Assembly: GCA_964023275.1 (NCBI GenBank)
Contig: OZ029918.1
Coordinates: forward strand, 29,938,149-30,002,148
Direction of reading: 5' to 3'
DNA: 64,000 nt
DNA from: Norana najaformis
Taxonomy: Eukaryota; Annelida; Clitellata; Crassiclitellata; Hormogastridae
In this document: in pieces, positions 3,448-41,251 of the stretch
Position numbering within the stretch: the first letter of the stretch is position 1
How the letters are laid out: every line of letters starts with the position of its first letter
Notes under the pieces: model-generated
Databases searched by the model: none
What the model saw: the letters and a program-made list of their open reading frames with translations, nothing else
What the model was told of the DNA's origin: nothing
Program-made: the position numbers and the translations under genes

Positions 3448-3771
3448 TAAGTTGGGTTTGGAAGGCAGCTCATCTGGGACTTGAAGCTGGGATCTGTGTG
3501 GTGCTGAGAAATTTTGGAGAAGTACATTACACTGTAAGTTAAATTGTCCATAGTAACAAGTGCAAGCTGTCAAACCGTTACATCTTTATATTTGCCAAGT
3601 TGGTTTACTATTTTTCGGCTTTTCTCAAGTTTTTAAACACAACGTGTAAAGAAGACTGGACTGATGCAACACTTTAACAGAATTACTTTTATTTAGGAAT
3701 ATGTTTAAAAGGCACTCAGTAGTATTAAGTGTCTAAGATAGCTAAGTATTTGTTCTCTGTCAAAGTTTGAA
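3448..3771. other. Convergent intergenic spacer
   Basis: Between the stop of the first gene and the left edge of the duplicated unit I see no gene. On the minus strand, AATAAA-type hexamers occur (reverse of TTTATT near 3686 and near 3961) and could serve the phospholipase B-like gene, whose stop is at 4815. Confidence 0.35.
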
Positions 3772-7800: not shown

Positions 7801-9908
7801 CCGTTCAACTGCTGCATAACAATGTAGTATACATAAATTCTTTGAAAACTATGATTAATAATAGATATAAAATCCCCACATCAGATATGAAATTTCTCAT
7901 AAAATTTCATAATAGTAATTGATCTCTAAGACTCTCTTAATGTCCTTTCATATATCTAGGGCTCTCTTACATCAAAAAAACTGTCTCCAACTTGACAAGG
8001 CTTTCCTTGACTCAAAAGGCTATGCCAGAAGCCCAGAATGTATACCAGTATGTAGATAGGCTCTATTGATTCAAATGGCTCTCCCCTATTCCTGATGATC
8101 TTTATGTTTTGAGAGAGTCTCTCCTTAACCTTAGGAAGGCTTGTCCAGATTATAGACAGGCTCTTCCTATTACCTGAAGAGACAGCCTCTTTAAGGTACT
8201 ACCATGGTTCTCCCCATTGAGTATGGTTCTCGGGCAATCAACAGCTACAGTAGTCTTGAGGGAAATGAATTGCTTACCTGGATAGCTGGAAAAGGAGGAA
8301 CTGTGTGAGGCAGTGCTCGGATCTTTCACATTCAAATGGTAATGTTTGTAAATGCGCATAGTCGCTGCATATACAAACCAACTGGAATGCGACATGAACA
8401 GATTCTCATAACCCCCAGTCACCTAAAACATCAGATATTTTTATTTCAGTCACCTACAACATCAGAAAGTTTAATTTCAACAATATCTAGCTTAGTAGCA
8501 TGTTAATCATTTAATTATTGACACTGCTAAAACCGTTACTACATACCAAAGAATTATTCAACTTCAGAGCTAATCTGTCAATGAACAGAAGCTTTTCTTG
8601 ATGCATTACAGAGGTTTGCGCTAACAAGTCGGAGTTTGTAAATGCTTCACACCAGTTGTTTTACATGAGAAACTCCTAGTAATGTTTTTGTGTTATACTG
8701 ATATATAAAAAAATTGGGATATGAATCCCAAATTTTAGTTTTTCAGAAAACCACCTATCTACTATAATAGAAACCTGCTAAAACTCATTTGTTACATAGC
8801 GGTCATATATAAAAAATTAAACTCTATTATACCATAAATTCTTATATAACAAGGTTAGGAACAGAATTAGTTAAGCCATAGAAAACAACCTCATTAGTTT
8901 CTTTGTTGTGGCTCCTAATACAGCAATGTCTGGTGTATGACTTTCAAAGAAAGTATTATAAGAAAGATTTTGAGTTACTTACTTTAACCAGAACTGAACA
9001 GTGACTGTTGGCTAGCATGTATTGCTGAAGTTCCTCACGAGAGAACTTGAAGAAGTCCGGCGGACCAGATGGGTTGATGACATGTCGTATGTCAATCATA
9101 TCCCCAAGTGCATTCAGCATCTGAATCACAAAGACGTCCGTATCCTGAAAGATCAGAAAAACCCAACAAGTCAAGCCTTGAATATCATAGAGCCTACACA
9201 CACCAATAGTATCACTTTGTAGTACACTTTGACAGCTGTTTGACCAGGTCGGCCCACGTGAGTCAACTCGTTCGGGGCTGTTTCTATCAACTGCGTCGTA
9301 TAAAATCCATCCGCAGACTGATTCCTACCTCGACGGCCATCACCTTCGTTAACAGCTTCATAGTTTCCAGGGTTGACTACTGCAACAGCCTACTAGCGGA
9401 GCTGCCTGCTTGCCAGCTAGATCGGGTGAAGTCAATGCTGAACTCTGCCGCACGTGTCATCTACGGCCGGACACCATCCGATCATATTAGTGACCTGCTG
9501 CGCGACAATCTGCACTGTGCATTCCTCAACAGATCACATACAAACTGTCTGATCACCTACAAAGCACTGTATGGCTTCATGCCAGACTACATCTCTGAAT
9601 TTTGTATTCGAGTGGGAGACAATGAGAACAGATGTCGGCTGCGGTCCTCGTCGAGGAACCTACTGCAGGTTCCGAGGTCTTCCACGCGGTTTGGTGAAAG
9701 CTCTTTCTCGATTGCCGGGCCCACCACGTGGAATAACCTTCCTGACCATGTGAAGAATGCTATATCATTGGATACCTTTAAGAAAGGGCTTAAAACGTTT
9801 CTATTTAAATTATCGTATGACTGTAGTTAATTTTCTATTGTCGCTTGAACTTATGTACAGCGCCCTTTTCTTCGGCCTCGGCCATGTTACGGCGCTATAG
9901 AAATTGTC

Positions 9909-9944
<36 letters not shown>

Positions 9945-12900
9945 AATTCAATAATATGAAACGAGTGAAACAGTATTTGCAGCAGACTTCATGAAACATT
10001 GGCCTATGCGAGCAACAACCTCGTCCAAGCCAGTCCCAAGGCTGGATAAAGAGGAGGGTCAGACAAATGGGTGCAGATACTGCACACGTAAAATAAAAGA
10101 TGATAGACACCTATGGCACATGACATCACAAAATGCAACATCAGTTCAGACGTCATCCGAATCTACAGTCAGCAAAACGATTAAATTCCAGTGGACTCCT
10201 GCGGCTTTCAAGCCTTGGACACAAGTTAGGATGATAATTAAATGTTAAGACAAGTAAAAAGTGTAGATCTAACAGACTAACAAGATATAATGAGAAAACA
10301 AAGCAAAGTAGTTATAACTGGCTTAGACATATTAAGGATATTTACAGATTTTTCTCCTAGCTGGAATTAATCCCTCCTAGGGATTGATGATATTTACAAA
10401 TAAGCTACCAAGAGTTACAACAGTAGTTACAAAATATTAAGCGTTAACAAAACACAGAAGCAGATCTTTCTAATAAACCTGTAATTCATATATTCATCTT
10501 CTGCTTATTTCAATCATCTGATGAGTTTCATTAAAGTGGTGCTATATAAATTTGCAATTACAGTTACAAGCACCTACCCAACCACTTTCCGCTGTTGCTT
10601 TGTAACCAGCATGCAGGCCATCGAACTGCGAAATGATGTACGACGCATGTCGCCAGTAGGGATCGCTAATTCCGTATTTCTGAATCAATTCACGGGTCCA
10701 TGCATCCTGCTTCGTAAAGAACTGACGATATCGTTTTTCAAGCTCCTTTTCAGCTGGCTTAATGAAGAATGGCTTGACATTAAGATAATGCTGCCAAATT
10801 TGCCTACAGTCAACAAAATGTAAACAGATAGTTACACGGTCATTTTTCACCCTTTCAGAAGCAATGCTCAGTCACATGGCAAACGGGCTTGGATCATAAC
10901 TTTCGTAGGGCATCGGCGTTGCAACTCCCAGACCTTCACTATTTGGGGGACGTGTATCTCAGGCTTGTGCAGACAGTACAAGGGTACCTCTGTAGGCCGT
11001 TTCTGTGTCATCTGGGACTGCCCTCTTAGCTGTTTGACCGGACACACCATGGAATTTGGCTTGCACAATGATTTTGCTGAGCAGCGACCATTGACTGATG
11101 CCCTGAGCATAATTACAGTGGCGCAACAGAAGTTCTTAGATTAGATAAAAATTGTGAGGCACCGATTCAAATGGGCAGCAAAAAGAACCATACACAATAA
11201 AATCATTCAGTTATAAGCAGGATCTGTTCCTATAAAAACTATATACATACAAATCGTAAGAATAGCATTCCCTGTAAACTAACCCCAAAGGGTAATCTGC
11301 CATGTAGCAACTTAATTTTCTTAGCCATGGCACATGAAAGCTGGTAGCTAGTCCTCTCTCTCACTCTGATCTTCCCACTGACTGCACACACATGATGTAC
11401 TCATTTTATAAGCTTAGTTGAGCTTCCAGAGAAACAGAAATCCTGAAATATCTTTCTGTCTTCTCTGTCCTGGTGAGAATTTTAAGCGCTGGGTTAAAAG
11501 TCCAGCATGCCAACGACTATACTGAGATGTTAATCAGAAATTTTTAAAACATGCCATTAAGCAGAAGCAAAATCAAGGCACAAACACATTAAACTGAAAT
11601 TTTTATGCACATACAAACATACTGCTGATTGAGAGTGCTAAGACCTTTCATTTACTTATTTACTTATTTAGTCACTCACAGTTAGGATGGAATTCAATGC
11701 ATGAAACATTCTTAACCATCATCACTATTTTACAAATCACAAATATTACAAAAGATTAAACGGAAGGGTAAAATATTTGACTAAATAGAACTTTGATTAC
11801 GACTTCTTATTGGCGTGAAGACATTTTTCACACTTGGATGCAGAATAAGTATGTACCTCGATGTAAGAATGCCCTCCAAATAACCAGCACCAAACATGAC
11901 AACGGTGTTGTTGCAATCATCTTTGTTGCATTCTGCCTTCACCTCAAGAACTCCCCAGCCAGTTGCATTCAGTGTGTTGTTATAGTAACCGTAGGCCACA
12001 CCCTGCTTGTCCATCACCCCCAGCTTATAGGTGAATGTGCCACTGGCCTTGTTGTAGTAAACAGTACACTCTTGGTAGCCATCTGTCGTCAAGAAAGGAA
12101 ATGAATGCTATTTCATTAGCATAATATAAATCCCATTAATAACAAATTATTAAATTATTATTAACGATGGCACATTGAAAGTACCTAAAAAGATAGCAGC
12201 AGTGCTTGATGTAGAATATTTTGAAATGCATACTTTTATGCAGATATGTGTTTCATGTGAAAAAACTTCTAAAAACACTTCATTACAAGAATTGGTAGCA
12301 GAAACTTCTTGGTTAAAATATAAAAATATAATGTGATATTCCTACTTAATAAAAATACTGATTTGATGCATCTTGGATGCAACACAACAGGCTTGCTTGA
12401 TAGTATAGCTAATCCAAAACAATTGGTCATACTACATGCATTTTATCCTGAACAATCAATTTGTCATGCTAGAAGCATCTTACCCTGAACAGTCAATTTG
12501 TCACACTAGATGCATCTTATCCTGAACAACCAATTTGTCATATTAGATGTATCTCATCCTGAACAATCAATTTGTCATGCTAGATGCATCTTATTCTGAA
12601 CAATCAAAATGCATGATTTATCATAAAGTTTCAAAATAGATAACATTTGATGGAGAGGCCATGCGAATTATACTCAGTGCTGATATTTAGGATTCATGGA
12701 ATAATGCCAGTGAAGATCAAACGAATGGTCGTGCAGAATAACGTGCAATTGGGTGATATCAATCCAAATCATACTTTTCAAAGTAGAAACGGTAAAAACT
12801 AGGAAATCAGTGCAAAATCAACAGCAATTTCACAAACACTAAAGTTGAAGTAAATGCATCACCAAAATATCTTTATGTCAAGAAAGGAAATGCCTTTATG

Positions 12901-19172: not shown

Positions 19173-22100
19173 TTACAACTTGGGCCGTGTAGAAATCCAG
19201 TCGAAGTTGTAAGTGATTGGAAGGCCAACGTGAGAGCTGTGTGCAAACTCACTGGTCCATGTGAATGGCTTCAGACCGTGACTTCTTGTTGGGCCATTGA
19301 TGGCAACGCTTGACATCTCCAACGCCATCTTGTAGTCTGCTACCTACAGTAGACCAAAACGTCCAATGTAAAGTAAAGCAAGGTAACTGCTTTTTTATTA
19401 CAAGCCTTTATCATCAGTAGTGAACGTATGTTGGCCAACTGGCAAAGTACAGGCCTCTACCTCTGTGTCAAGTTCAAAATTTGCATAAATAGTCCAACAA
19501 TTCGTCATTATTATTAATAATAATATTTGCAATAGTGTTAATTAAAACCTTCAAAGCACTTATGTGCACAGTGTGTAAACCTGAATCTGACGTGCATTAC
19601 ATGTCATTCAGTTGCCAACACAGGTCGCATACTCTTACTACTGTTGCATTTTTTGACCCGGCACATGTTTTCAAAATTTACTGTTACAAATAATAGAAAA
19701 ATCAACTGTCAGCAGCAGTGGTCACATGCCTTGGTGTCATAGCAACCAAATGCAGATGGTGCATTGCTACCCAGATCTCCACGACAGCAAATTGTGTCAC
19801 ATGGATTCTTCTTAGAATAGACATCATAAACATAATCTACAAGAAACAGAAAGTTTAGCCATAAACCGAAATTATGCATTTACTGATCTGCCATAGAAAT
19901 GTGGGCCTGCCAGTGTATCTAACAATGTAACAGTAAAATGTGACAGTGCATAATTATGTATGTGTGGCATGCATATAAAAAGGTATTATCATTATTATAT
20001 TTTCAGTATTACTTAAATTTTTATTATAATTATTTACCCAAAAGACAAAATCCAGAGGTAGTGGAAAAAACTATTCGATGTATGGGAAAGCGCATTACTG
20101 GAACGGCTAGTGTTTGCAAATTCAGGCTCCATGAATATACCGTGGAACGTATCGCACCAAACTGAAACTACATACCAGTAGATTTGTTTTCTCATATTTA
20201 CATTGAAAGCCTTGAAATGTTAAAAATCAAAAACTGTATAAAAAAAACACAAATAACTGATTTCCTAATAGATGCTAACCATTGTAACGCATGATTGCTT
20301 TCATGGTATTCACATCAATGACTGATCCAGCATCTCGGCGGAAGATTTTTGCCCTCGCGGCCAACTGATATGAAAAATCCGGGCCATATTTCTCAACAAG
20401 TTGAGGATATCCACTTAGATTGTAGATGTTCTCAAAGAAAGGAACGTTATACGAAGGCCAATATCCTAGTAAAACAAGGTAGAGCATTTCAGTTACATTT
20501 ATTCACCTCCACGACCAATCATGTTCTCCAATGACCTACCGACGACCTACTGGAGTAATAATAGGTCAAATATTTTTATAATTATAGTAATTATTATAAG
20601 TTATTATCATGAGGGTCACAGAAAAGCAGATGGCATTTAGCTGTTGGAAAGCCATCAAGATTATTATTATTACTATTATTTTTATTGGTAAATAGTGGTA
20701 TTATGTATACAGATTATTACTACAATAATCACACTTCCTAACTTTCCAGATATTTCTGTGATCCTAGTTTAATTTTTGAGAGTTCTGAGGGATATTTGGC
20801 TAAAAGGTTAAAACAAATTACAAATTTGCTAACAATAAGAACATTAAATATTGTCAACATAATCATCCGCAAAATACCCATCATAATAAGAACACTGCAA
20901 GATGGCTTCTGGAAGTTTTTTCTGTGCTTGAAAATATTTCAGTGCAAGACAAGAAATCGCTCTCACTGCAGATATGTAACACTGAGAAACCCTATGTGAC
21001 TACATTGCAAACACATCATGTGGCTCAGACAGTGCATCCAAGAAGGTAACAGAACTGACCTGTACGCAAGATGGGTGTTTCATCTTGACCCACGACAAGA
21101 CCAGGTATCTGTTCGATCACCCAAAGTGTGTCATCTTTAAGAGATTGGTTCAGCTTCACCCTCTTTAGGTCAATCACCATGTACTGATTGTTATATGTTC
21201 CTGTTAAGAATCGTCAATCAAACTATACTGATCTGGTCGTGCCAACAGTCATCGGTCAAGGCATACTGATTGTCTTTTGTCTTAAAGTCTGTCATCAGGT
21301 ACTAACTGTTTTATGTTCTTGTTAACAATTATCCATCAAATTACATTACAAATTATGATTGTTCTTATGTACCTGTACTACTCCTGGCATACGGATTCAT
21401 TTTTAAGCAATAACTACAGACAGTTATATTCTTTTCATCTACTAATGTCTCTGTTGTTTCCTCTTTGCTGATCAGGTGACTTATTTTGATTAGTATTAAA
21501 AATACTTAAATACAAACTTCTGCAACAAATAAGCAGATACTTAACCAATAAGTTTACCCATTTAGGGCAACCTAATGCAACTACCATCTTCAGATCAATT
21601 CAAGAAAAACTCCATTATGGAAAAATCATTTTGTGTTCTCGCAATCACTCCTCCTCTTCAGACAGCTCCTGTTTCAGCCTCATGAACCCACTTTTATAAA
21701 AAAAACAGGGTAGCTTAAGGTGAGAGGTTGTTGCAGAAAAAACAGACCATTTCATTTTAACCATCCCCATATTGTAACATAACAGTAATACAGCATCTTT
21801 TGTGATCCTACCCGAGTTGTACATTTTGAAGATCTTGTACCACTGGAATCCGGAATTTGCCATCATGTTGGCAATGCGCACTCGTTGCCAAGCCAGATTG
21901 GCCTGTGTTGAAACCAACTTAAAAAGGGCTGCATTGTAGACGTTGTTCGTTGTCTGGAGCAGGACAAGTTTACTGTCCATCACATAAAAGTCATCCTGCG
22001 ACTCTAAGGCACCTACAATTCAATCAAATCCAAACACAGTCAAGCAAATATCACATTCTTAGATCAGCACAGAAAGGTCACACTTAAAAATGAAAGCTCT

Positions 22101-25100
22101 CAGCATTAGTTACTTCACAAATCTTTTAAAAATCCTGGAAGTTACACCAAAGCAAAATAGCTGTTCAACTGCTGCACAACAATGTAGCATACTTCAAATT
22201 CTTTTAAAACTATGATTAATAATCGATATAAAATCCCCACATCAGATATGAAATTTCTCATAAATCTTCATAATAGTAATTGATCTTTAAGGCTCTCTTA
22301 ATGTCCTTTCATATATCTAGCTAGGGCTCTCCTATATAAAAAAACTGTCTCCAACTTCACAAGGCTTTCCTCGTCTCAAAAAGCTCTGCCAGATGTCAAG
22401 AAAGTATACCAGTATGAAGGTAGTCTCTAGTGATTCAAATGGCTCTCCCCTATTCCTGATGATCTTTATGTTTTGAGAGAGTCTCTCCCTTACCTTAGGA
22501 AGGCTTGTCCGGCTCTTCCTATTACCGATACAGACAGCCTCTTTAAGGTACTACCATGGTTCTCCCCATTCACTATGGTTCTGGGGCAATCAGCAGCACA
22601 GTAGTCTTGAGGGAAATGAATTGCTTACCTGGATAGCTGGAAAAGGAGGAACTGTGTGAGGCAGTGCTCGGATCTTTCACATTCAAATGGTAATGTTTGT
22701 AAATGCGCATAGTCGCTGCATATACAAACCAAGTGGAATGCGACATGAACAGATTCTCATAACCCCCAGTCACCTAAAACATCAGATATTTTTATTTCAG
22801 TCACCTACAACCTCAGAAATTTTAATTTCAGCAATGTCTACTTTAATAGCATGTTAATCATCTAATTATTGACACTGCTAAAACCGTTACTGCATGCCAA
22901 ACTTCAGGGCCATTCTGCCAATGATGCATTATAGAGGTATGTGCTAACAAGTCAGTTTGTTTATGCCTCACACCACACGCTTTACACGAGAAACTCCTTA
23001 TAACGTGTTTTTTGTGTTAAGCTGGTACAAAAAGTTGGGATATGAATCCGAAATTTACGTATTTCAGGAAACAACCTAACTACTACAACAGAAACTTCTT
23101 ATAACACATTTGTTACATAGCGGCCAGATAGAGACCTTATTACACTCTATTATACCATAAATTCTTATATAACACGGTTAAGAACAAAATTAGTTCAGCC
23201 ACAGAAAACAACCTCATTAGTTTCTTTGTTTTGACTCCAAAAGACAGCAATGGAAAGACTTTCTGGTGACTTTCAAAGAAAGTATTATAAAAAAGACTTT
23301 GAGTTACTCACCTTAACCAGAACTGAACAGTGACTGTTGGCTAGCATGTATTGCTGAAGTTCCTCACGAGAGAACTTGAAGAAGTCCGGCGGACCAGATG
23401 GGTTGATGACATGTCGTATGTCAATCATATCCCCAAGTGCATTCAGCATCTGAATCACAAAGACGTCTGTATCCTGAAAGATTAGAAAACCCAATAAGTC
23501 TTGAATATCATAAAGTCTACCCGCACCAATAATGAATTCAATAATACGAAACAATTGAAACAGTATTTGCAGCAGACTTCATGAAACATTGGCCTATGCG
23601 AGCAACAACTTCGTCCAAGTCAGTCTTATGGTTGGATAAGGAGAAAGGTCAGACAAAATGGGTGCAGATATTGCACACGTAAAATAAAAGATGATAGACA
23701 TCTAGGGCACTTGACATCACAAAAATGCAACATGAGTTCAGACGTCATCCGAATCTACAGTCAGCAAAAACGATTAAATTCCAGTGGACTGCTGCGGCTT
23801 TCAACACTTGGACACAGATTAGGATGATAATTAAATGTTAAGACAAGTAAAAAGTGTAGATCTAACAGACTAACAAGATATAATGAGAAAACAAAGCAAA
23901 GTAGTTATAACTGGCTTAGAAATATTAAGGATATTTACAGATTTTTCTCCTAGCTGGAATTAATCCCTCCTAGGGATTGAGGATATTTACAAATAAGCTA
24001 CCAAGAGTTACAACAGTAGTTACAAAATATTAAACACAGAAGCGGATCTTGCTAATAAACCTGTAATTCATATATTCATCTGATAATTTCAATCATCTGA
24101 TGAGTTTCATTAATGTGGTGCTATATAAATTTGCAATTACAGTTACAAGCACCTACCCAACCACTTTCCGCTGTTGCTTTATAACCAGCATGCAGGCCAT
24201 CGAACTGCGAAATGATGTACGACACATGTCGCCAGTAGGGATCACTAGTTCCATATTTCTGAATCAATTCACGAGTCCATGCATCCTGCTTCGTAAAGAA
24301 CTGCCGATATCGTTTTTCAAGCTCCTTCTCAGCTGGCTCAATGAAGAATGGCTTGACATTAAGATAATGCTGCCAAATTTGCCTACAGTCAACAAAATGT
24401 AAACAAATAGTTACACCATCATTTTTCACCCTTTCAGAAGCCATGGTCAGTGACATGGTAAACTGGCTTGGATCATAACTTTGGTAGGGCATCGGCGTTG
24501 CAACTCCCAGACCTTCACTATTTGGGGGACGTGTATCTCAGGGTTGTGCAGACAGTACAAGGGTACCTCTGTAGGCCGTTTCTGTGTCATCTGGGACTGC
24601 CCTCTTAGCTGTTTGACCGGACACACCATGGAATTTGGCTTGCACAATGATTATGCTGAGCAGCGACCATTGACTGATGCCCTGAGCATAATTACAGTGG
24701 CACAAAAGAAGTTCTTAGATTAGATAAAAATTGTGAGGCACCGATTCAATGGGCAGCGAAAAGAACCATACACAATAAAATCATTCAATAATGAGCAGGA
24801 TCTGTTCCTATAAAAACTATACACATACAAATCATAAGAACAGCATTTCCTGTAAACTAACCCAAAGTGCAATCTGTCATGTAGCGACTTTATTTTCTTA
24901 GCCATGGCACATAAAAGCTGGTAGCAAGTCCTCTCTCACTCTCTGATCTGCACACACATGACGTACTCAGTTTATAAGCTTAGTTGAGTTTTCCAGAGAA
25001 ACAGAAATCCTGAAATATCTTTCTGTCTTCTCTGTCCTGGTGAGAATTTTAAGTGCTGGGTAGAAAGTCCAGCATGCCAACGACTATACTGAGATGTTAA

Positions 25101-27876
25101 TCAGAAATTTTTAAAACATGCCATTAAGCAGAAGCAAAATCAAGCCACAAACACACTAAACTGAAATTTTTATGCACATACAAACATACCGCTGATTCAG
25201 AGTGCTATGACCTTTCATTTACTTACTTGCTTATTTATTCACTCAAAGTTAGGCTGGAATTCAACGCATCAAACATTCTTAACCATTATCACTATTATCA
25301 CAAATCACAAATATTACAAAAGGTTAAACGGAAGGGTTAAAATATCTGACTAAATAGAACTTTGGTTATGGCTTCTTTTTAACACTTAGATGCTGAATAA
25401 GTAAGTATGTACCTTGATGTGAGAATGCCCTCCAAGTAACCAGCACCATACATGACAACGGTGTTGTTGCAATCACCTTTGTTGCATTCTGCCTTCACCT
25501 CAAGAACACCCCAGCCAGTTGCATTCAGTGTGTTGTTATAGTAACCGTAGGCCACACCCTGCTTGTCCATCACCCCCAGCTTATAGGTGAATGCGCCATT
25601 GTTGTAGTAAACAGTACACTCCTGGTAGCCATCTGTCGTCAAGAAAGGAAATGAATTCTACTTCATTAGTATAATATAAAAACCATTACTATTAAATTAT
25701 TATTAACACTAGAAGGACGGCACACTGAATATACCTAAAAAGATGGCAGTGGTTTAACAAAATGACCCCAAAAAAGGCAGCAGTGCTTGATGTAAGACAT
25801 TTTGAAATGCATACTTTTATGCAGATATGTGTTTCATGTGAGGAAAACTTCGGAAACACTTCATTACAAGAATTTGTAGCAGAAAATATTTGGTTAAAAT
25901 TTAAAAATATAACGTGATATTTAAATTTAATTACCAAAAATACTGATTTGATGCATCTTGGATGCAACACAATAGGCTTGCTTGATAGTATAGCTAATCC
26001 AAAGCAATTGGTGATACTACATGCATCTTATCCTGAACAATTTGTCATATTAGATGTATCTTATCCTGAACAATCAATTTGTCATACTAGATGTATGACT
26101 GCCATAGTCATTTTAGGGATAAAATGGGGGTCAATATTGTTGAAAGTTTGCAGTTATGTTTCCCTCCCAAATCATAGAAAAGTCATACAAGCTTTTAATC
26201 TAATTCCAATTTGGGTGTGAACAGCATGCCATCAACATTCGCAAACAGTCATAAATAACGTTGCCGTCCTAGTATTAAACTTAAATGCAGTCTTCACATT
26301 AACTATGTACCTGCAAAATAAGAGCAAGCAATCAATCAACATTCGCAAACAGTCATAAATAACTTGAATAAATAAATAAATAAATAATGTTATATTTTTG
26401 TCATAAATAAAGTGATGTGGCTTGGTGCAACATAAGTCCCTTATCACATGAGATAATTCACTTCAATGCAAAAGTATAATGTGTAGCAAAATGCAAAAAT
26501 CAAAATAGTGAAATTTTACAGTGGAAGTTGCTTAAAATATGACTGACAACTACTGTGTACTATAATTTATTCCAAAAGGTGCTCGGCAAATGTGGTTTGT
26601 CAACAAACAGCGATTGATTATGTCAACTAGTAAAACTGTCATTGCTTGACATTTCCATTCACCACTGGAAGCATAAACAACAATTGTTAATTCAAATGTA
26701 ACACCAAGTTTAACATATTAAGAAAATTACACAGCATCTCGTCAAATGCTCTCAAAAGTGATGTTAATGAAGTTTAGTGAATTAAACGAAGTCAAGTGAT
26801 TTACATTCCAGTTATGTTTTAATTACTTAAACCATTTGGAAACCATTTGCTCATCACATAACTTCTCTGTAATTTTATGTCCATAGTGTCTGTTACTTGT
26901 CATTAGCTGAGCTCATAGCTGGTGTGCACTGTGGCTAGTGCTTATTCCAATATTGTCAATGCATTGCTATCATTTGAGCAATTTATTTGTAACTAATTAC
27001 ATTAATATAGCCATCATGTGATTTCTAAGACACCATGCGAATCAATTTAGTTGAACTAGCCTGATTTCTGTATTAAGTATTAGTATTGATATTCATTTCA
27101 CGTTTGATCTGTAAATGTAACATCTGTGCCTCGCATCACCTTGACATTAATCAATTGCTCGTTTTTCTGAGGGCTCCTTCCCATCATGTTTCTCTCACAA
27201 AATATACTCTACCTCTTGCTGGAGAAACCATATTTAGATCCTGATACTATGTCAAACTAATGACCAATGTCAAACTTATTTTCATTTCTAAACTTCTTGT
27301 ATGCATTGTTAAAATTTGACTGCAGGCATACTTGTCTTCAGTCTCCTTCCTTCTCCCTTTCTGGTCAGCAAATTGCAAATTCCACATTCAGTTGAAACAG
27401 CTCTTCTCTCTCTCCACTGTGACTTTATATGCTCCAAGGAAAATGGCAAAGTAAATGCACTTGCTCTTCTTGACCTATCTGCTATCTTCGATTTTGATAA
27501 TAACAACGATGCTTTCTTGCTCCATCGCCTTGAGCACTGGTTTGGCATATCAGGTCTATCCCTAAACTGGTTCCAATCATATCTTACCCCCAATACTCAA
27601 TCTGTTTTAAACAGTGGACCAATGTTGAGGCATCCCTCAAGGCTCTGTTCTGGGCCCAATGTTTTCTCCTTGTAAAACACTCCACTAGGCGTTTTAAGTG
27701 TCCATAAATAGCTGTGCATAACGATATCATAACTTACTACCAAACAGTGATTAGATAAGTTATTACACAATTTGTTCAAAGTTAAAATCTTGTTTTATAC
27801 CTCCGTATAATGCATCTGCGAGTTGACAAGAGAAGCAGAAAACTCCTAAAAGTAGAATCACTGCACGACAAGCCAT
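19173..27876 (-). CDS. PLBD1: Phospholipase B-like 1 precursor, copy B
   Basis: Tandem paralogue of the gene at 4815-16621 with the same ten-exon structure: 27876-27801, 25632-25413, 24382-24157, 23473-23312, 22773-22629, 22012-21812, 21200-21060, 20465-20280, 19836-19730, 19343-19173. The exons sum to 544 codons plus stop; the two-residue difference is a short deletion in exon 2 ([10 protein letters not shown] against [12 protein letters not shown]). The signal peptide and the processing SHCSVLVKV motif (Cys about 223) are kept and no frame is broken, so it looks functional. Replacements include K to E and I to T in exon 3, S to T in exon 5, and [10 protein letters not shown] to [10 protein letters not shown] at the start of exon 6, a normally very conserved block. 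The last intron is again GC-AG. A SINE sits about 90 bp upstream of the start codon. Confidence 0.92.
19344..19730 (-). other. GC-AG intron 9 of copy B
   Basis: Same noncanonical arrangement as in copy A: exon ends ACCAAG, intron starts GCATGT and ends CTACTGTAG, next exon begins GTAGCAGAC (VADYK). Retention gives the same early stop after ACDHCC. Confidence 0.85.
24570..24735 (+). mobile_element. 3' end fragment of a CR1-like LINE (unit B copy)
   Basis: Counterpart of 10960-11160 in intron 2 of copy B, with the same GTAGGCCGTTTCTGTGTC and CAGTGGCACAAAAGAAG landmarks. Present in both units, so inserted before the duplication. Confidence 0.68.
26020..26096. repeat. 37-bp minisatellite, two copies (unit B)
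   Basis: Same unit as 12435-12610 but about two copies, the first lacking a few bases. It lies in intron 1 of copy B. Confidence 0.8.
27310..27690 (+). mobile_element. CR1-like LINE remnant, truncated (unit B copy)
   Basis: An almost continuous frame reads [53 protein letters not shown], that is, the middle of a CR1/L2 reverse transcriptase. It is better preserved than the unit A copy at 15260 but ends abruptly near 27690, after which the sequence corresponds to 16443 of unit A. Confidence 0.85.
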
Positions 27877-29935: not shown

Positions 29936-30024
29936 TGTTGGGTCAGTTTCCTCTCCAGGTCACACTGATTACACTGCGATACTCATCGAAACAAAAATAG
30001 CATGCAAGCAATGCGTCTTTATTA

Positions 30025-30210
30025 TTATTTCTGCAGTTGTTAAACGCCTCTCTCTAATGACTAAGCATCAGTCGATGGCATTGAGCAGTTGTGACTTGCA
30101 CAAGACTTGTTCAAGATTCCTACACAGTAAACGTCTCAGAGAAATCTTGAACCCGTCAAAACCGTGTTACGAAGCAAGCACTCTAACCAATCGGCTACCG
30201 TGCCTTTTTA
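30025..30210 (-). mobile_element. tRNA-derived SINE, family 2
   Basis: On the minus strand: CGGTAGCCGATTGGTTAGAG (box A), then GGGTTCAAGATTTC (box B), then GTCTTGTGCAAGTCACAACT and a tail with GACTGATGCTTAGTCATTAG. This is the clearest copy of the family and shows it to be tRNA-derived. Confidence 0.82.
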
Positions 30211-30404
30211 GTTACTTAACGGAGCAAAAATTACATTTTGCGCAATTTTCTAAAACTGTAGTTAACTTTAAATGTATGGATTATGTTACTTAAATTCGCT
30301 CTGTTATCAGCGCTGGGAAGTTATCGTCATGCACTATTTAGCAGCACTACTTACTCATTTAACAGGCGTCGTCCTTGAACTTGACATATTTTGTGTAGGC
30401 ATTA
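30211..30404. other. Presumed ancestral 5' flank of TMEM65
   Basis: If the P-like element is removed at its target duplication, this DNA joins directly to the TMEM65 start codon (ATTA-GGTAGAAT-GTTGACG). It may therefore hold the original 5' UTR or promoter. I see no clear TATA box or other motif in it. Confidence 0.4.
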
Positions 30405-30412
30405 GGTAGAAT

Positions 30413-30443
30413 CATAGATATAATAACACTGGATACAGCATAC
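30413..30443 (+). repeat. Left 31-bp terminal inverted repeat of the P-like element
   Basis: Matches 33527-33557 in inverse orientation at all 31 positions. It is preceded by the 8-bp target duplication GGTAGAAT (30405-30412). Confidence 0.95.
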
Positions 30444-30609
30444 AGCCCGATTTCTATGCTATGCGGTGAAGCCGACATCTCTCTATGTTAATGACGTCAT
30501 GGGGGGCAGAAAGCTGAGCTTTACACGGTAGTGATGGGTGCTGTAGAGGAAAGTTGAACGTTGTTTATCGGAACCAAATTCGTTATTTGGAGCATACATT
30601 TTTGCAAAA

Positions 30610-31240
30610 TGACTAAATCTGTGAGATGAAAGAATAAAGTCAAGTCCCCGTTGCGTACATTTGCCCTCACTTTGCATGTTCATTCAGCAAAGGCCTGCGA
30701 ATATGCGAGGAAAACTTTTAAGACATGGCTCCCAGACCAAAATACATTGACGCGTTGGTTTAGCAGTATGAAAGTCCAACCTGGTTTCATAAAGCGGACT
30801 TCAAAATGCCAGCAACAGGACACTAATGAAATTTTCTGTGGTCTTCTAATGGACGAAAAGTCTTACGGAAACATGTTAAATGGGATGGTCACAGATCATA
30901 TGGATTTGTTGATTATGGAACTGGTTTTGATGATGTCTGCGCTGGAGTTGCTAGGGAAGCTGTTCTTCTGATGCTGGTTGTTGTCAATAGACGCTAGAAA
31001 TTACCAGTTGGATATTTAACTCTTGGCCTATGTGCTAAGGAGAAAGCAAACATGATTAATTAAAACCTATCATCAAATCTGTTGATGTTGAAAATTTTGG
31101 GTTTGCAGACCTGTTTAATGTCCATAATATGAAGACTTGGTTCCCTCATCCAGGCAATGATCAACCAATTAATTTGATTATTGATTCTTATGTTGATGTT
31201 AGGGTTCACCATATCAGAAGCACAGAAACAATTCAACTCC
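30610..31240 (+). pseudogene. P element / THAP9-type transposase remnant
   Basis: The frame covering about 30636-30970 contains LRTFALTLHVHSAKACEYAR, KTFKTWLPDQNTLTRWFSSM and FCGLLMDEKS. This is the pattern of the P/THAP9 transposase catalytic region, and the MDE aspartate is the probable first catalytic acidic residue. Beyond about 30880 the similarity continues only with frameshifts and stops (VVVNRR, LPVGYLTLGLCAKEKANMIN, LFNVHNMKTWFPHPG). No THAP DNA-binding domain is seen and the N-terminal part is missing. It cannot make an active enzyme. Confidence 0.8.
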
Positions 31241-31369
31241 AAAGGACCCCAGGTTGAAACAGTTTCACAAAACTTATTCTTTTTAAGTTCATTAAAGTAG
31301 GTTCATTAAATCAGGCATAAGTTCAACTACACAAGTAGACTTGGTGAACAATGGTTTTCTACATCATAA

Positions 31370-32352
31370 ACTTTGCTGTAGCACTTAATTCTTTCTATTC
31401 ATTTTCACCATTCCACCTTCAAATCTCTTGTGCCCGAACTCACCTAAAACTGGATTCCTACTTGTTGGCCTACACGATCACCTCAAGAAATTCCTGATCC
31501 TTCAGTCTCCCTCAGCCTGGATTCTGCTTCCACTCACACCGTTAACACTAACTCTCCTGTCTGCAATATAGGTGTAATATTCTACCAACACCTCACCTTT
31601 TCTGATCATAACACCCATCTTCCCATTCTTACTTTATGCATATCCGTGACCTTTGCAGAATGTAAATGGTATTTGTAAGTCAACATACATGCATATTCGT
31701 GACATGCCCAGAATTAGGCATTATGCCCCTATGTCTTCCAGAATATCCTTAGCTAACGCACTGGTCTCCAGTCGCCTTGACTATTGTAGCTCAATTCTTG
31801 TTGGTATCACTACAAGTCAAACATGCAGATACTCCAAAGAGTTCAGAACTCCTTGGCTAGAGCCATAACAAATAATTCAAAATATAAGCATATAACCCCT
31901 GTGCTTAAATCTTTGCATTGGCTTCCTGTTCAGCAAAGGATCTCAAATTAGTACTTACAGTCTATAAAACATTGAACTACGGCCAACCACATTACTTAAA
32001 ATCAGTTCTTATTCCCCAGACTTACCATTACTCTGCAAGGTCATCTGATAGTCTTTCTCTGGTCATACCTTGGACTAGAACTGTTCTGGGTAAATGAGCA
32101 TTTTCGGTTGGTGGACCAAAATTCTGGGACTCCCTCCCTGTGTCTGTTCATTCTGCTCAGTCGCTTCTACCATTTCGTTCTCAATTTAAAACTTGCCTGT
32201 TTCAAATTGCTTATCCACCATAGACTGCCTCTCTGTCTTGCAGACTGACCTTCTGGATATCGACCTGATTGTGGCTTGGTTCTGGTGTGCCATCGGTTGA
32301 TGCCTTGTGCATTAGACACTGGCGCATTAGAAGTTGCTAATTGTTATTATTA
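31370..32352 (+). mobile_element. CR1-like LINE remnant nested in the P-like element
   Basis: Broken frames read LANALVSSRLDYCSSILVGI, ITPVLKSLHWLPVQQRI-like, GPKFWDSLPVSVHSAQS, and end with a 3' UTR (GCCATCGGTTGATGCC, CACTGGCGCATTAGAAG) and a short TTA tail. It lies wholly between the transposon ends. Confidence 0.78.
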
Positions 32353-32354
32353 AT

Positions 32355-33290
<936 letters not shown>

Positions 33291-33481
33291 TGTATATTTT
33301 TATTATAATTTTAAAAGCCTCATTATGGTCATTTTCTGCGATTAGCCAAAACATATTGCATTATTAAACTTATCCGTTAAAATATTTGTGTATATAAATG
33401 TCTCTGTAAAGACGATTCACAAACACGAACTTGCAGTTCTTTCATGCATTTCTACCGTACACGACTGCTTTCTGCCCCCCA

Positions 33482-33489
33482 TGACGTCA
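33482..33489. promoter_or_regulatory. CRE-type TGACGTCA site upstream of TMEM65
   Basis: A perfect palindromic cAMP-response/ATF-type octamer, about 75 bp upstream of the TMEM65 ATG and inside the right subterminal repeat of the P-like element. The mirror copy at 30492-30499 has it too. Binding is an inference from sequence only. Confidence 0.5.
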
Positions 33490-33526
33490 CTGACTAAAAT
33501 TAGATGTTGGCTTCACAAATCTGGTC

Positions 33527-33565
33527 GTATGCTGTATCCAGTGTTATTATATCTATGGGTAGAAT
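33527..33565 (-). repeat. Right 31-bp terminal inverted repeat and target duplication
   Basis: 33527-33557 is the inverse of 30413-30443; 33558-33565 is the second GGTAGAAT. The last two bases of the duplication are the A and T of the TMEM65 ATG at 33564-33566. Confidence 0.95.
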
Positions 33566-36500
33566 GTTGACGAAGTGTTTTCAGTGGTTGCCGGCTCGGT
33601 TTCAGTCCTCCATTTCGCCGTTTCTGTTTTATAGGACAGATTTTGGCGCATGGAGATCGGTGCGATTCTATGTTAAAAACGGTAAAGGTCAGACTTTTAA
33701 GTTCGGCAGTCCGAAATTGTCATGGCCTCGACACCCGCACCATCGGATGCCTTCGTCTTGGCCATACATGGTTGCCGTGACGACACCAGAAGAGGCCCAC
33801 GACGTTGTTGTACATCTTGATGAAAATGGAAGGAACCTTCTGTTGGAACAGCTAAAGAAGTTTCAAGAGGAAAAGGCCACAAATGCAGGTAATAAGGCAG
33901 TGATTATTAATTTTTGGTAATTGCAATTGTCAACACAATTACGCATCGGCAATTACAAGTAGTTACTTTAAAACTAACGTACGGTGATCATTTATTAAGA
34001 TGTGAATCATGGGTCAGTAACTCATTTGGCGGAAATGCCACTCATTATTTGCTCAGGAGCAATGCAACTACAGAATAATTTTTAATTTCATTTTGCTTGC
34101 ACTGGTTTAAAGTGTTAGCAACTTCACGTTCATAACTAAAGTATATGTGGGTGGGTGGGTGGCAAGTAAGAGGAATATGACAGTGCAGAACTACATTACA
34201 GTATAAAATGAGCATTATCATCAGTAACTGATGCAAACCATTTACAATCAAAGGGTGCAAATGGATGATCTCCAAGTATTTGGGCATTTATCTAACGTGA
34301 AGGTATTTAATGATGCAAGGATCAAATAACATTGAATAAATTTGCATTAATTTAAAACCCAGTAAGCATAATTTGTAGTTGAGTTTGGTGCAGAGAAGTT
34401 GAGAAGTCTTGCATTATTACACCTGCAGTCCCTCACGCTAGCTATCACTTTTAACAAAGATTTGACAATTCAGTCATGCAGTTGAGTTTGAAATGCTTAT
34501 GCGGTGATGAAAGCCCCATCATTTGGCTGAACCACTGCTACACATGGTTATCTTCTATACAAATAATATACTAGAAACTCATTACAATGCTGTCTGGAGC
34601 CATGCCTAGTACCACCTTATAACGCGACCATATTGTAATGAGATCAAAGGAGTGAGAACTAAGGAGTGAAAGATATAACTAGGAAGACATTTAAGACTGT
34701 GAAATTGAAATTGAAGAGTTGGTTTTAATTAAGAGTAAAATATATTTTTGAACATGTCTTGACACAGACAGATAATAATTGGTTAAATTTGTTTACATGA
34801 GTTGAATTTTGCTAGTTGTGTTGAGCTAATGTTGTAACACGTTTGTCAGCGGGTGGGGCAGATCTAGTTTGATTCCTGAAGCAAAATGGCTACAAGAAAG
34901 CAGTTGATGCAGATGTTCCCAAGTTTTTCCATGTTTATTTGAATAAAAAAACAAGGATCAACCATTGCATGCACAGGAATAACTCAAAACAGAACAAATG
35001 ATTAACAGTAATTAAGTTATGAATTGTTAGATATACACTGAAGAACTATTGTTTTAGCTTGCCAACGATGATTCTTCTAGTTATCTTATCAATGTTTACT
35101 AACGGATGAATGGGTTCTGTTCTTAATGACATTTAACACCATTCAGGTTAGCGCAGAGAGCACCTCTGATTAATTTTTCTTGAAGAGTCGCAATACAACT
35201 TTCTGATTACAGTTACCAGGTATTGGTCGGTACTAAACTAAGGGATTTGAGCTAGCAGGGGTAAATTGCTAGTGAGCTTATCAAATCTGTCTTGCAGAAT
35301 ACTGAAGAATTTAGGTGCATATCTTAGACTATCATATATGTCCAAAATATACAAGTGCTAAAGCGATTTAATGTTGAAATTATGAAACATTGTAATGAAA
35401 GAACAAAATAAAACATTTATAGTGGGTTTTAAATGATGCCAGAGTTTATAATCTTAACATATACACTGTGTGCAGGTTTAAGGCTCCCTGAGACGTTTAC
35501 TATGTAGGGACCTTGAGCAAGTCCTTCACTCACAATTGCTCTGTGCCATCGACTGATGCTTAGTCATTAGAAAGTGGCGCTTGACAAATGCAGGAATAAC
35601 AATATTAATCTTAAGATTTGTAAGTAATGAATTCCAGTGCTCAGTCCGAGTACAGTTACAGGAAATAGACAGGTGTTGGTCCCACAAGGTTCTACGAACT
35701 ACTTGGCGAATAATTGCCCCAGGATAATTGACCAATTGATTCCTTGCAAGTGTATATGCACCTCTTTTCAAAATCATCCCTTTTTATGTAGCTAGGCTTG
35801 AATCTTGTATAGACCAGCGTATGCTTTACAACGGTTGTAGAAGGTCAGGTTGATGCCGAAGTGAAAGTGCAACTGCAGCCATGTGGCAATTAAACCAGAC
35901 CCAGCATCAGCTGCTACATTCATTTATTTCCAACCCTTCTGGAGTCACACAAGGACCTTTTCCAATTCTACAAGTTCTACTGTTTGGTCACAGAGGCAGT
36001 CTTTCTCAAATTGATCCTTGCAAGTGTTTTTGCACCCATATTCACAGAGTTTTTGCAAGGAAACCACTTGCCCAAAGTTTGTTACACAGAGTTCACTCAG
36101 CAATCATCAGGCCATGATTCAAGTGCATTACTAATTGGTGTACCGCATCACCCAGTAAACAATATAAGCGAGAAACAAGTCATGTTATGATTAACGAGTG
36201 TTTGTCGGGTTGGGTTTTTCCAGGTGACGTAGCAGAGGTGCCGCCCACTGTTACAACTTCACAGCTGTTCGATGGTATGCAATACAGAGTGTTTTATTAA
36301 TTCTTTTATTGCTACTGGTGTTGTTTATTTTTTTAGCAGATGTTCTTTGTTTTATGTTAGAAGCTGGTAGAAGGAGATATATAAAGTACTTTATAAATGT
36401 CTGCCAACATTGCTTTACCTTGGATGACGAACTTCTAGTTAATCAATTGGATAATTAATTTTTTAACTGCATTAGTTAAATTTGATGGAGAATTTCCAGT

Positions 36501-39500
36501 TTCTGAGCCATACTCCAAAGACAAGAATATGTCAGCATATACATTTTATGTTTTTTTGGGGGGTTTGTTAATCCTTTAAATATTTGAAATTAAGCAGAAT
36601 TTGAGGACCGTTTTGCTGTTTGTTAATGTCATAATACTAGTTATCTTTAAAAAGTTCTGTTGTAGTTTGGTGAAGCTATTTATTAAACGTTTATCATTTA
36701 TATTGATTCTCATTATGCTTATATTTTGTTCTTAATTTACAATGATTTCATTTATGGTAATTAACATAATTTTTGAATATAAGTGTAAGATAACCTAATT
36801 GTGTCACGAACAGATTTTCTTTGCAGTTTGATATCATACAGATTCTTTTCAGCTATTTACTTTTTAAGTCATCTGCCTCACTTGATGTCTGATTTCTGTT
36901 TACTTTTTAAGTCATCTGCCTCACTTGATGTCTGATTGCTTTATGTGTATATATTTTGCATCATTTTTCAGTATTCGTGTTCAATGGGTTGCCATTTATT
37001 GGATTTGGGATACTTGACAATGGAATAATGATAGTTGCTGTAAGTGTTCGTTGTGACATAAAACAGTAGCTATTTAACTCTTGCCTCTCACTGCATTAGA
37101 CCTTGCAACAACCAGTCTGTTGTTTTGTCAGAAATCAGTATAATAATATGGATTAGATAAGGTAATGTAAATTATTCACTACAACCGGTCAATTGTTTGA
37201 TCTGCTATCTGGGTGTCAGATAAAGTCAGGCAAATTTATTACGTGCCTTACTGGTCCTGACTATTATGTTTCTGAGGTTGATAGATTATTTGGTTGAAGC
37301 ACAGATATGACTGCAACTATGCAGTAATTAAACTACCTTTTTATGCATGCATATGTGTGTATGATTGTATGTATGCAGATGTTTAGTTATGAAGATGTTT
37401 AGTTATGAAGTTCATCAAAAACTTTAATTTTAACTGAATTTTATATCTAATCGCATCTAATGACTTCTGTGTTGCCATTGTCGTAATTTAGTGAAACCGT
37501 ATTAAAAACTGCCATAATCTGCTGAAAAAGCCTTGTTGAAAACTGATAGGTCAGTCTGTAGTGGGTAGGCTAGTTGAAACTGTTGAGTAGCACCATTTTA
37601 TTGAGCACCAAATTCCTTTGCAAATGTGTAGCATACATGTGTATAACTGTGCAAATGATGCAAATCTCAAAAGGGACGGATTGTTCTGCTAATTGGGACA
37701 CAACGTTTCATTGCATAATTTGGTTATTGATCTGAATAAATCTGGCTGAGAGAATTCTTAATTAATAAGCTTGGCCTTGTGAATTGATGTTTGAATACAG
37801 GGTGAATATATCGATGTCACGATTGGAGCCGCTTTAGGAATTTCAACAATGGCAGGTTGATTCAAGTCCTTTGTATTTTGTTTCTTTGGTTTTATGTATT
37901 TTTGCAGTGTTGCCACATTTTTGTAAGTTAGTTGCTTAGTTATTTAGACACTTAATAATGTGTCTTTTAAGTACATCACAAAGCACTGCCTGTGCAAGCC
38001 TTTAGATCATTAAGAACAAAAAGTTTATCAGCAAGCGAACAGTGCTCAGATAACTAGAAGAGTTACCACTGGCAGGCTTCCACACACATGGATTCCCATC
38101 CAAAGTTGACGTCGTAGACCATGCTCAGAGTTCCTGGACCATGCTGATGATGAGGAAAGACGATGGCTGATGGAGTCTCAGTATACAGTTACCTTCAGCA
38201 TTCCCTTGTAGATGGGAGAAGGTAGATTTTTCTTCCCTAATAAACAAATTTGAAAATAAAAATTAAATAAATAAATACCAAATAAATAAATACCAAATAA
38301 ATAAATTTATATAAATAAATAAATTTATATTTATAAATTTTAAATAAATTTAAATAAATAAATTTGAATAAATTTAAATTTTATCTGTTAGTCTTTTGGA
38401 ATCGTATTATTCAGAGACCTTGTAAGGAAATAACTTCTAATTGGTCAGTGATTTAAGATGTCCTGATTATTCATCGGTCCTGAACTTCCGCAGTGCAGCA
38501 TGAAAGTTTTACATTGGTCAGTCCCTTGTGAAATTGGTTGCCTAAGAACTTCAGCTTCTGCTTTCTTTGCATCTGTTTGATTTGGTTTTGTGTTGCCTGA
38601 GGTGTTTCCCTGGAGGAGGTTGTGTCTATTTTTTTGGAGGGCTCAAGATTAAGACTGGATTCAACAGTATACATTGCATGAGTGAATAGGCTATTAGATT
38701 AGATCAGATCAAATTGTTGTCTTTATTTATTTATTTATGTATTTATTTATTTGTTGCATTTATTATGTGCTGAAGGTAAGTAAATCTAAAATCTGAGGTG
38801 CAAGACAAGTTTATGCGAACAACTTGTCCCAGGTCGTTACTGGGAGTCCATAATCATAGGATTACAGTCTCTTCCCTTATCTAATCCATGTTATTATACT
38901 GATTTCTACTGTATAGAGCACAATGCCACACAGTCTGATCTCAGCTGAAAACTTAACCTGCTTTGACATGCTTATCCTGCTTATCTTATCTTCTCTTATC
39001 TGATGACTTCTACAGCACCATTATTACAATGCGTAAAGCATCAGCTGATGGTCAGTTCAAGTGAAACCAACGTAAAAAGCCTTAGGCTGACTCTGTCTGT
39101 CTTACCTTCTGGAACTGAAGATATTGTGGATGAGCCTTGATTGTTGTATTTAGTATTTGTAACAGTGCTACAGAAGTTGCAAAATTAAATTAAATTAACA
39201 GTTTCTTCATTGAAAATGTGTTTGTGTTTACAGCTGCTGCTTTGGGTAACCTCATCTCTGATGTGGCTGGAGTTGGGTGAGTCAGGCCACTAAACGATTT
39301 TCATTATTTATTCCTAGTACCAGATAATTGTTTTACTTAGACATGTTGCTCTTACTATTTTTATTATTGTTATTATTATCCTTATTTAAATTAGTTCTAT
39401 AAACTTAAAAGAACTTGTGGAAATTTAGCAATGACAGAGATTGGTTGTACTGTGACGTACGTTGGTTATTTTATTGTTTTTACTTCGGTTTTTTAACCCA

Positions 39501-41251
39501 AGGGAGAAAAGACGATTTTTAAAAATCTTTCAGGAAATGGTGATTTGTGCTGGCATCTGGTCTCATAAAGTTACTTTAGGAAACATTTTATTATTATTAT
39601 TAAATTATTATTATTCCTTTTATTATTCCTGTTATTGACCTTTTTTATCTTTTAACCAGAGTTATTGTAGTTTTGGTTATAAGTGTTTTGGTTATTGCTT
39701 GTTTAGTTTCTTATTTTTCATTAGCTGCCCTTGCTTTATATTCTGATTTACTGACTGAACATGCAATAAATGTTTTAAATGGAAGTAATGATAAAATGCT
39801 AAATTCTTGGTAAATTTTGTCGTTTTCCTGTGCTGCAGGTCTGCTGGTTTCATAGAAAGTCTTTTTAGTAAGATTGGGTTTCGAACGCCAGACATAACTC
39901 CTGAACAATCAGATCTGAGGGTCGTCCGGTGGGCAACTGCTTTCGTTAGTATTCTCTTGCCTTTCTTGGAGTTTATGAAATATGCACTACATTACGAATT
40001 AGATTATGAATGGGTCTTCTGTTCAGTTCTTGTGTTATATTGTTACAGAACATATCGATAACACCTCTCGAAACACCTCTGAGGGGTTACATACATATGT
40101 ACCGTCTCGGCTGGTCTAATCTAGTGATCTGTGTAGCGCCATTATTATAATGCACAAGGCATTAATGATTGATCACTGTAGGTTAAGCCATTGTCAGAAA
40201 TGACAATCTGTTGAAGTCAGGATGAAACTCAGTGGGTCAGAGAAACCAGAAGTAGTCAGGCTATGATGGATATGCAAGTCGAAACAGGTGAGCCTTAAGT
40301 TTAGACCTGAATGACATTAAAGAGCTAATGGAACACACAGAAATCGGCGGTGAAAGCTTCAAGCCGTCCACAGGGAATGCCAGGGAGCCCAACACCGTTC
40401 TTGTGCAAGGTATAACAAGAGTCAACGTGTACGTCATTATCAGTGAGATGGAAACGGTGTGTCTTTAAAGCTTGTGGGAATTTGAAATACCAGTAATGTG
40501 GTAAGTCGAGATGGGTTTTTGGATTGCTTAGTTGCTAACTGCTTACATGTTAGTTTTCTCTGCTGCACATAAGATGAAATGTGAAACGATAGTCATTGTG
40601 GGGCTTTGTATCCCATAAGCAAGGTTTTTGCACTGTTGAGCTGTAATCCAACTTCATTTGATTAATAATAATAATAATAATAATAATTACAATAACAATA
40701 ACTAACAATAACAACAACAACAATAATAATAATAATTTACATTTAGTCAAATGAAGTTGGATTACTGTTGTCTTGTTTGTGCTTCAGCCCTTAAAATTTA
40801 AGGTGAAGTTAAGCTCCTATATTCCGTAGTCAAATGTAGGGGAAGCATTCATTTCTGACTCTGTGGCCCTAGAGCTGGCAATGGATGAATCCCAAGGTCC
40901 TGAACATGGAACCGGCACATTGCAAGACATGCTATTTACGTCACGGCCTATGCTGGTACCAAATTCTGCTTGATGACAGAAACACGTTTGCATAAACAAC
41001 TTGCCTGGGGTCATGACATGCAGGCCGCTCAGTAGGCTTGAGCCTGCAGCTGTTAGATCAAAGACCAAGTGCACTTCTGATCGGCCACCATGTCTTGCCT
41101 TAAGATGGAGCTTCATTCCTTATTTTAGGGTCGTGCTATTGGCATATCACTGGGATGCCTTATTGGAATGCTTCCACTTCTATTCTTCAAGAAAAAGGAA
41201 ACATCTGAGAACGAGTCAAGTCCTGAGTCTGGGTCACCTGCATCTGGCTGA
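33564..41251 (+). CDS. TMEM65: TMEM65 mitochondrial inner-membrane protein
   Basis: Seven exons: 33564-33888, 36224-36274, 36972-37039, 37801-37855, 39234-39276, 39839-39944, 41129-41251. Phases match throughout and total 256 codons plus stop (human protein about 240). The N-terminus (MLTKCFQWLPARFQ..., basic with few acids) fits a mitochondrial presequence. Family core: FNGLPFIGFGILDNGIMIVA, then GISTMA, AALGNLISDVAG, the loop with TPDITPEQSD, and the last membrane segment GRAIGISLGCLIGMLPLLFF followed by a KKK-acidic tail. Three hydrophobic segments fit the known three-pass topology. Exon 6 uses a weaker TTC|GTTAGT donor, required by frame and homology. TMEM65 is linked to mitochondrial calcium efflux and cristae function in vertebrates. 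In-frame ATGs at 33504 and 33555, inside the transposon end, could extend the N-terminus by 20 or 3 residues. Confidence 0.93.
33889..36223 (+). other. TMEM65 intron 1
   Basis: No coding exon is visible. It holds a plus-strand 3' half of SINE family 2 (about 35475-35600: GAGACGTTTACTATGTAGG, GACTGATGCTTAGTCATTAG) and otherwise unremarkable AT-rich DNA. The intron starts GTAATAAG and ends TTTTTCCAG. Confidence 0.75.
35475..35600 (+). mobile_element. SINE family 2, 3' half
   Basis: Matches the minus strand of 30025-30210 from the CTGAGACGTTTACT block to the CATTAG..GTGGCGCTTGACAAATGCAG tail. The tRNA head is missing or unrecognisable. Confidence 0.6.
36856..36942. repeat. 43-bp tandem duplication in TMEM65 intron 2
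   Basis: TACTTTTTAAGTCATCTGCC followed by TCACTTGATGTCTGATT occurs twice, 43 bp apart (starting at 36858 and 36901), with no visible difference over the shared core. It ends about 30 bp before exon 3, near the branch-point region. Confidence 0.85.
38265..38380. repeat. AAATAAATA-rich simple repeat
   Basis: Interrupted AAAT/AAATAAATACC repeats in TMEM65 intron 4. Nearby, 38690-38890 has a TTAGATTAGATCAGATC LINE-tail-like run, a (TTTA)n stretch and a diverged piece of SINE family 4 (CAACTTGTCCCAGGTCGTTA). Confidence 0.75.
39000..39185 (-). mobile_element. LINE 3' tail fragment
   Basis: ACTTCTACAGCACCATTATT, AATGCGTAAAGCATCAGCTGATGG is the reverse of the CR1-like 3' end seen at 52280 and 40120 (CAGTGATGC...TGGCGCTACAGAAGTC). 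Short and old; it lies in TMEM65 intron 4. Confidence 0.5.
40090..40500 (-). mobile_element. CR1-like LINE 3' fragment in TMEM65 intron 6
   Basis: On the minus strand it encodes SSLMSFRSKLKAHLFRLAYP then a stop, preceded by a diverged WNSLP-type region. The 3' UTR ends near TGGCGCTACACAGATCACT. A close relative is at 52280-52720. Confidence 0.72.
40665..40742. repeat. (AAT)n/(AAC)n microsatellite
   Basis: Runs of ATA, ACAATA and ACA triplets within TMEM65 intron 6. Confidence 0.9.
40826..41045 (-). mobile_element. SINE-like repeat, family 4
   Basis: Shares TGTAGGGGAAGCA, GATGAATCCCAAGGTCCTG and AACAACTTGCCTGGGGT with 55315-55580. In the longer copy a tRNA-like head follows on the minus strand. 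It ends about 85 bp before TMEM65 exon 7. Confidence 0.65.

Follow-up and report, generated by a model that had tools for sequence, protein, structure and literature searches.

A P-superfamily transposon with intact ends at the start codon of TMEM65 in the annelid Norana najaformis, and its possible consequences for the gene

We analyzed a 64,000-nucleotide stretch of the genome of Norana najaformis (GenBank assembly GCA_964023275.1, contig OZ029918.1, positions 29,938,149 to 30,002,148 of the forward strand), hereafter the window, in which a transposon lies at the start codon of the gene TMEM65. The insertion is real and fairly young. We are largely confident that a non-autonomous element of the P superfamily, one of a young family, inserted with an 8-bp target-site duplication (TSD) into the TMEM65 leader at the ATG. 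The transposon is of a known kind, its position is unusually exact, and no new mechanism is required to explain the arrangement.

From 30405 to 33566, the window reads GGTAGAAT, a 3,145-bp element (30413 to 33557, plus strand, delimited by its ends, genome matches and copy comparison), GGTAGAAT again, and then G. The two octamers, at 30405 to 30412 and 33558 to 33565, are an exact repeat. The final two bases of the right one are the AT of the TMEM65 ATG (33564 to 33566), and the TSD therefore consists of six leader bases plus the first two bases of the start codon. As the duplication restores GGTAGAAT, the six bases upstream of the native ATG, and hence its immediate start context, are retained. 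The terminal inverted repeats (TIRs), at 30413 to 30443 on the plus strand (the 5' end, judged by the direction of a transposase remnant) and at 33527 to 33557 on the minus strand, match at 31 of 31 bases; the first difference follows directly, with a 93% match out to 41 bases. The original prediction had described an intact-ended P-like element of this size, with perfect 31-bp TIRs and an 8-bp TSD overlapping the A and T of the start codon, that had displaced the old 5' flank of TMEM65 by about 3.1 kb, and base-for-base inspection confirmed each of these points.

The former flank or leader of TMEM65 lies at 30216 to 30404 (plus strand), and a genome search with 30216 to 30412 (197 bp) matched only itself. 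When the flanks are rejoined as an empty site, an in-frame TAG (30396 to 30398) is followed by four codons and then the ATG, which indicates that 33564 is the native start, provided that the leader is unspliced. By eye, a tRNA-like stretch, possibly a short interspersed nuclear element, occupies about 30000 to 30215; if it is one, no more than about 190 unique bases of the old flank would adjoin the insertion. Misassembly as the source of the arrangement deserves mention, as the element is repetitive and includes a 287-bp microsatellite. However, the TSD is exact, both flanks are unique, and the element carries a deletion absent from 15 copies that share its interior; on these grounds we ruled the artefact out as extremely improbable.

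The interrupted gene is complete, with six exons and 239 codons (coding sequence of 717 bp). Its product matches the TMEM65 domain (PF10507, E=4.7e-44, profile positions 2 to 108 of 109), in agreement with the identity first proposed. In the gene model, exon 1 runs from the native ATG (33564 to 33888), followed by exons 2 (36972 to 37039), 3 (37801 to 37855), 4 (39234 to 39276), 5 (39839 to 39944) and 6 (41129 to 41251, through the stop codon), all on the plus strand; exon limits were chosen from the human protein and the GT-AG rule. A second TMEM65, which might render this copy dispensable, was sought with exon 1 alone, and at E<=0.1 exon 1 matched only itself in the genome. A genome profile search with PF10507 found nothing, the known gene included, and is therefore uninformative on paralogues.

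The element retains a trace of its origin. A remnant of the helix-turn-helix (HTH) region of P transposase was found at 30630 to 30968 on the plus strand (PF12017, E=3.7e-12, partial at profile positions 34 to 73 of 73), and its frame is broken, with one TGA within the wider match; the transposase remnant noted earlier is present in degraded form. No THAP domain was matched in the two remnant open reading frames (ORFs) scanned in the window copy, and the other five element ORFs scanned had no Pfam match. Downstream of element position 955, Pfam detected no P sequence in four centre ORFs, and more than two thirds of the element length is without P sequence recognised by Pfam. Judging by eye from motifs, some element ORFs may resemble the tails of reverse transcriptases from long interspersed nuclear elements. 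The filler also contains a 4-bp microsatellite of 287 bp (32934 to 33220, plus strand). Inside the TIRs lies a 28-nt subterminal inverted repeat of 93% identity, at 30487 to 30514 (plus strand) and 33467 to 33494 (minus strand), whose two arms contain the octamer TGACGTCA at 30492 and at 33482 to 33489.

As the original prediction had proposed, we searched the genome with the 31-bp end. At no more than one mismatch, 160 matches were obtained in 608 Mb, 84 of them in forward and 76 in reverse orientation, and the reversed 31-mer gave none in the same search. We infer a family of some 80 copies. Twenty further copies, picked by paired ends among the first 100 end matches listed, were read. Fifteen of the 20 share the interior of the window copy, with long pieces 93-99% identical outside the microsatellite part, and some of them differ further by insertions or small gaps particular to the copy. 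These 15 hold about 468-478 extra bases at a point that corresponds to 31366/31367 (element positions 954/955), the deletion junction at which the window copy has lost about 470 bp. The remaining copies comprise a short, internally deleted one (L049), three of a divergent type (L041, L054 and L055) and one that has mainly its ends in common with the window copy (L045). Parts of the interior are common to the divergent copies at 75-86%, which implies that the centre is old. An exact 8-bp TSD was present in 17 of 22 copies (the window copy, the 20 fetched and a further copy, L074) and absent in five; together with the 160 end matches against none for the control, this excludes chance. Nine of the 17 exact TSDs start with G (p=0.002 relative to base composition, for a position picked after inspection), a weak hint of a target preference.

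Three sets of copies show unusual structures. L045 is a P-ended element of 3,577 bp (1501 to 5077 of its locus), and the locus contains a 567-aa minus-strand ORF that looks by eye like a ZBED/hAT-type transposase, possibly nested or captured. On contig C7, L056, L057 and L058 have mismatched flanking octamers within each copy; L056 has its left octamer in common with L057 (on the right side of the latter) and its right flank in common with L058, as ectopic recombination between copies would give. L057 also adjoins a 24-base partial end. At L046 and on contig C4 (2748346 to 2751916), a composite copy with an extra internal right end is present; its end spacing occurs on two contigs, C3 and C4, and the composite itself may have moved or been copied.

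The P-like identity originally assigned to the element stands, but it is not simply a single decayed P element: it is non-autonomous and belongs to a young family resembling the P-derived miniature inverted-repeat transposable elements (P-MITEs). The Drosophila melanogaster P element (PMC7776569) has the same perfect 31-bp TIRs and 8-bp TSD, together with subterminal inverted repeats and non-autonomous copies that carry internal deletions, and it inserts mostly around promoters; the subterminal repeat is 28 bp here against 11 bp in Drosophila, and unlike Drosophila P, the window element lacks recognised P sequence over most of its length. In Anopheles gambiae, P-MITEs combine P ends with an unrelated centre, and the TIRs of the master elements (27-31 bp) are like those found here (PMC1562414). 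The window family shares with P-MITEs the amplification as a unit with its centre. Whether this centre is likewise foreign to P was probed with Pfam, which gave no match in the four ORFs scanned, and its sharing of parts with the divergent copies leaves its origin unsettled. In contrast to the Anopheles elements, which are a few hundred bp long, the family retains the HTH remnant and measures 3.1-3.5 kb; at 3,145 bp, the element is P-MITE-like but strictly speaking not a MITE. The zebrafish Pdre/THAP9 elements (PMC10983969) also have an 8-bp TSD and internally deleted copies, and the Pdre2 TIR likewise starts with CAT, whereas a 13-bp TIR with distant 12-bp subterminal repeats sets Pdre apart from the window element.

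We propose that the element moved by cut-and-paste and that a THAP-type P transposase from this genome mobilised it in trans. The left 31-bp end of L074 is identical to that of the window copy, and this copy encodes a THAP domain (PF05485, E=1.7e-15). The genome holds at least 150 PF12017 matches, of which the five longest frames, open over 535-859 aa, come from other P families; near-equal scores and 291-aa open frames recur on many contigs, and the genome looks rich in P-like elements. The landing in the leader may reflect the preference of P elements for promoter regions. Since they are highly prevalent around promoters (PMC7776569), a leader insertion would be typical behaviour. Several observations weigh against this account. 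None of the copies examined was seen to encode an intact transposase between such ends; L074 lacks a PF12017 match over its length in one open frame, differs at the outermost bases of its right end and has no exact TSD. P copies of Anopheles are described as very rarely located in exons (PMC1562414). Finally, a Pfam scan of 108 of 110 flank ORFs of other copies (two from the window's own locus were dropped) yielded five families, each in 1 of 108 and one of them a reverse transcriptase, a result uninformative on promoter preference.

To estimate the age of the insertion, we counted substitutions private to the window copy and found 18 in 2,745 compared sites (0.7%): 5/940 in segment A (18 distinct sequences), 12/1,540 in segment B (14) and 1/265 in segment C (15). 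Some may predate the insertion, and only part of the family was sampled. An excess of CpG decay was considered as a clue to methylation and set aside, with 3 of 19 private changes being too few. At the observed rate, a dead coding sequence of 717 bp would have acquired about 4.7 substitutions and, indels not counted, would remain free of stops with a probability of 0.83. The intact frame is therefore no proof of expression, and the earlier argument that a conserved gene body implies continued expression does not hold.

This result bears on the reading that the allele is damaging or still segregating, with TMEM65 weakly or not expressed from this haplotype, which we regard as doubtful yet worth keeping in view. 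The insertion is young, an intact coding sequence says little about function, and only one haplotype was examined, so that a segregating or damaging allele is possible. Because loss of TMEM65 is severe in mice (PMC13254257), one would expect a null allele to occur rarely or in heterozygotes. On the other side, the window copy is among those with the most private substitutions (second among the 14 sequences of segment B, tied for third among the 18 of segment A, with 1 in segment C); it is thus not the most recent copy, and the insertion may have reached fixation.

The likeliest consequence for TMEM65 would be transcription from starts in or near the right end of the element, or from the old promoter with the element spliced out, and the two routes can co-exist; translation would then begin at the native ATG or at either of two in-frame ATGs of the element. 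From sequence features, we put this combined reading forward tentatively, a little short of calling it probable. Three outcomes are possible, namely takeover of the promoter, removal of the element by splicing, and a weakened allele, and they predict different, easily tested results. The locus amounts to a natural experiment, in which one datable insertion hit the start codon of a gene whose exon 1 occurs once in the genome and whose loss is severe in mice.

In the first route, the right end would serve TMEM65 as promoter and first exon, and a transposon ATG would add 20 N-terminal residues; on its own we consider this route rather unlikely. The element ends start with CAT and, read outward, end in ATG. 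This terminal ATG was present in 57 of 57 distinct ends in the fetched DNA, partly by construction, as the ends were found with the 31-mer at no more than two mismatches; the right end of L074, which has decayed, lacks it. At TMEM65, an element-encoded open stretch (33504 to 33563, plus strand, MLASQIWSYAVSSVIISMGR) contains two ATGs, at 33504 and 33555, that share the reading frame of the gene, and no stop lies between them and the native ATG. Starting at the terminal ATG, the open frame extends for 121 codons at TMEM65; at the other 56 ends it never exceeds 56 codons, each end being followed outward for up to 600 bases. However, chance alone would put roughly a third of insertions of this kind in frame, so the phase does not indicate selection, and the frame is long because the insertion landed at the start of a reading frame.

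A second argument for a right-end promoter came from an outward-facing TATA-like motif, TATATAAA (33391 to 33398, plus strand). Comparison of 15 distinct right ends showed TGACGTCA in all 15, whereas the TATA-like site reads TACATAAA in 13, TATATAAA in the window copy alone and TTTATAAA in L039. We rejected the motif as proof of a promoter, for the match was found post hoc: of the 795 single changes possible, 6 suffice to create one, the window copy has two changes in the segment, and L039 also bears TATAAA there. The CpG ratio was not used as a promoter mark either (1.16 in the left flank, 1.03 in exon 1 and 0.44 at the start of intron 1, with 0.9-1.3 elsewhere in the window).

The extension could comprise 20 residues (MLASQIWSYAVSSVIISMGR, from 33504) or three (MGR, from 33555). 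The native N-terminus carries a net charge of +5 over its first 40 residues, which would suggestively fit a mitochondrial location. With the 20-residue extension, the computed charge of the first 40 residues falls to +3 and a hydrophobic stretch is added. The arrangement also suggests that intact P ends carry a portable outward ATG. The wider proposal is that each intact insertion of a P-type end sets such an ATG flush at both borders, and that at TMEM65 this provided a transposon-made promoter, leader and start codon plus the MLASQIWSYAVSSVIISMGR extension, possibly altering mitochondrial import; we judge it improbable.

In the second route, the old promoter to the left of 30405 would still be active and the element would be removed as a new intron, which is again an outcome we would not expect, with no better prospects than a right-end promoter. 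Among GT sites in the window, a candidate donor at 30406 ranks in the top 14% and another at 30466 in the top 4%; a candidate acceptor at 33542 ranks in the top 12% of AG sites, and its use would retain the ATGs at 33555 and 33564. These ranks are within the range of TMEM65's own sites, with five acceptors in the top 0.1-15% and four of the five scored donors in the top 0.5-18%. But the weight matrix was built on generic frequencies and has little power, better-scoring donors exist inside the element (32285 and 31297), and many other sites score alike. The AG ahead of 33504 was discarded as an acceptor owing to its poor score (top 66%).

An Rfam scan of the window gave no match. Two closely similar sets of phospholipase B-like ORFs lie on the minus strand at 7271 to 12107 and 21648 to 25657, an apparent tandem duplication; PF04916 matched 21648 to 22019 (E=4.2e-23), and the other set was recognised by eye. 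On the plus strand, a KANK-like ORF at 59026 to 60135 contains a KN motif (PF12075, E=2.1e-7).

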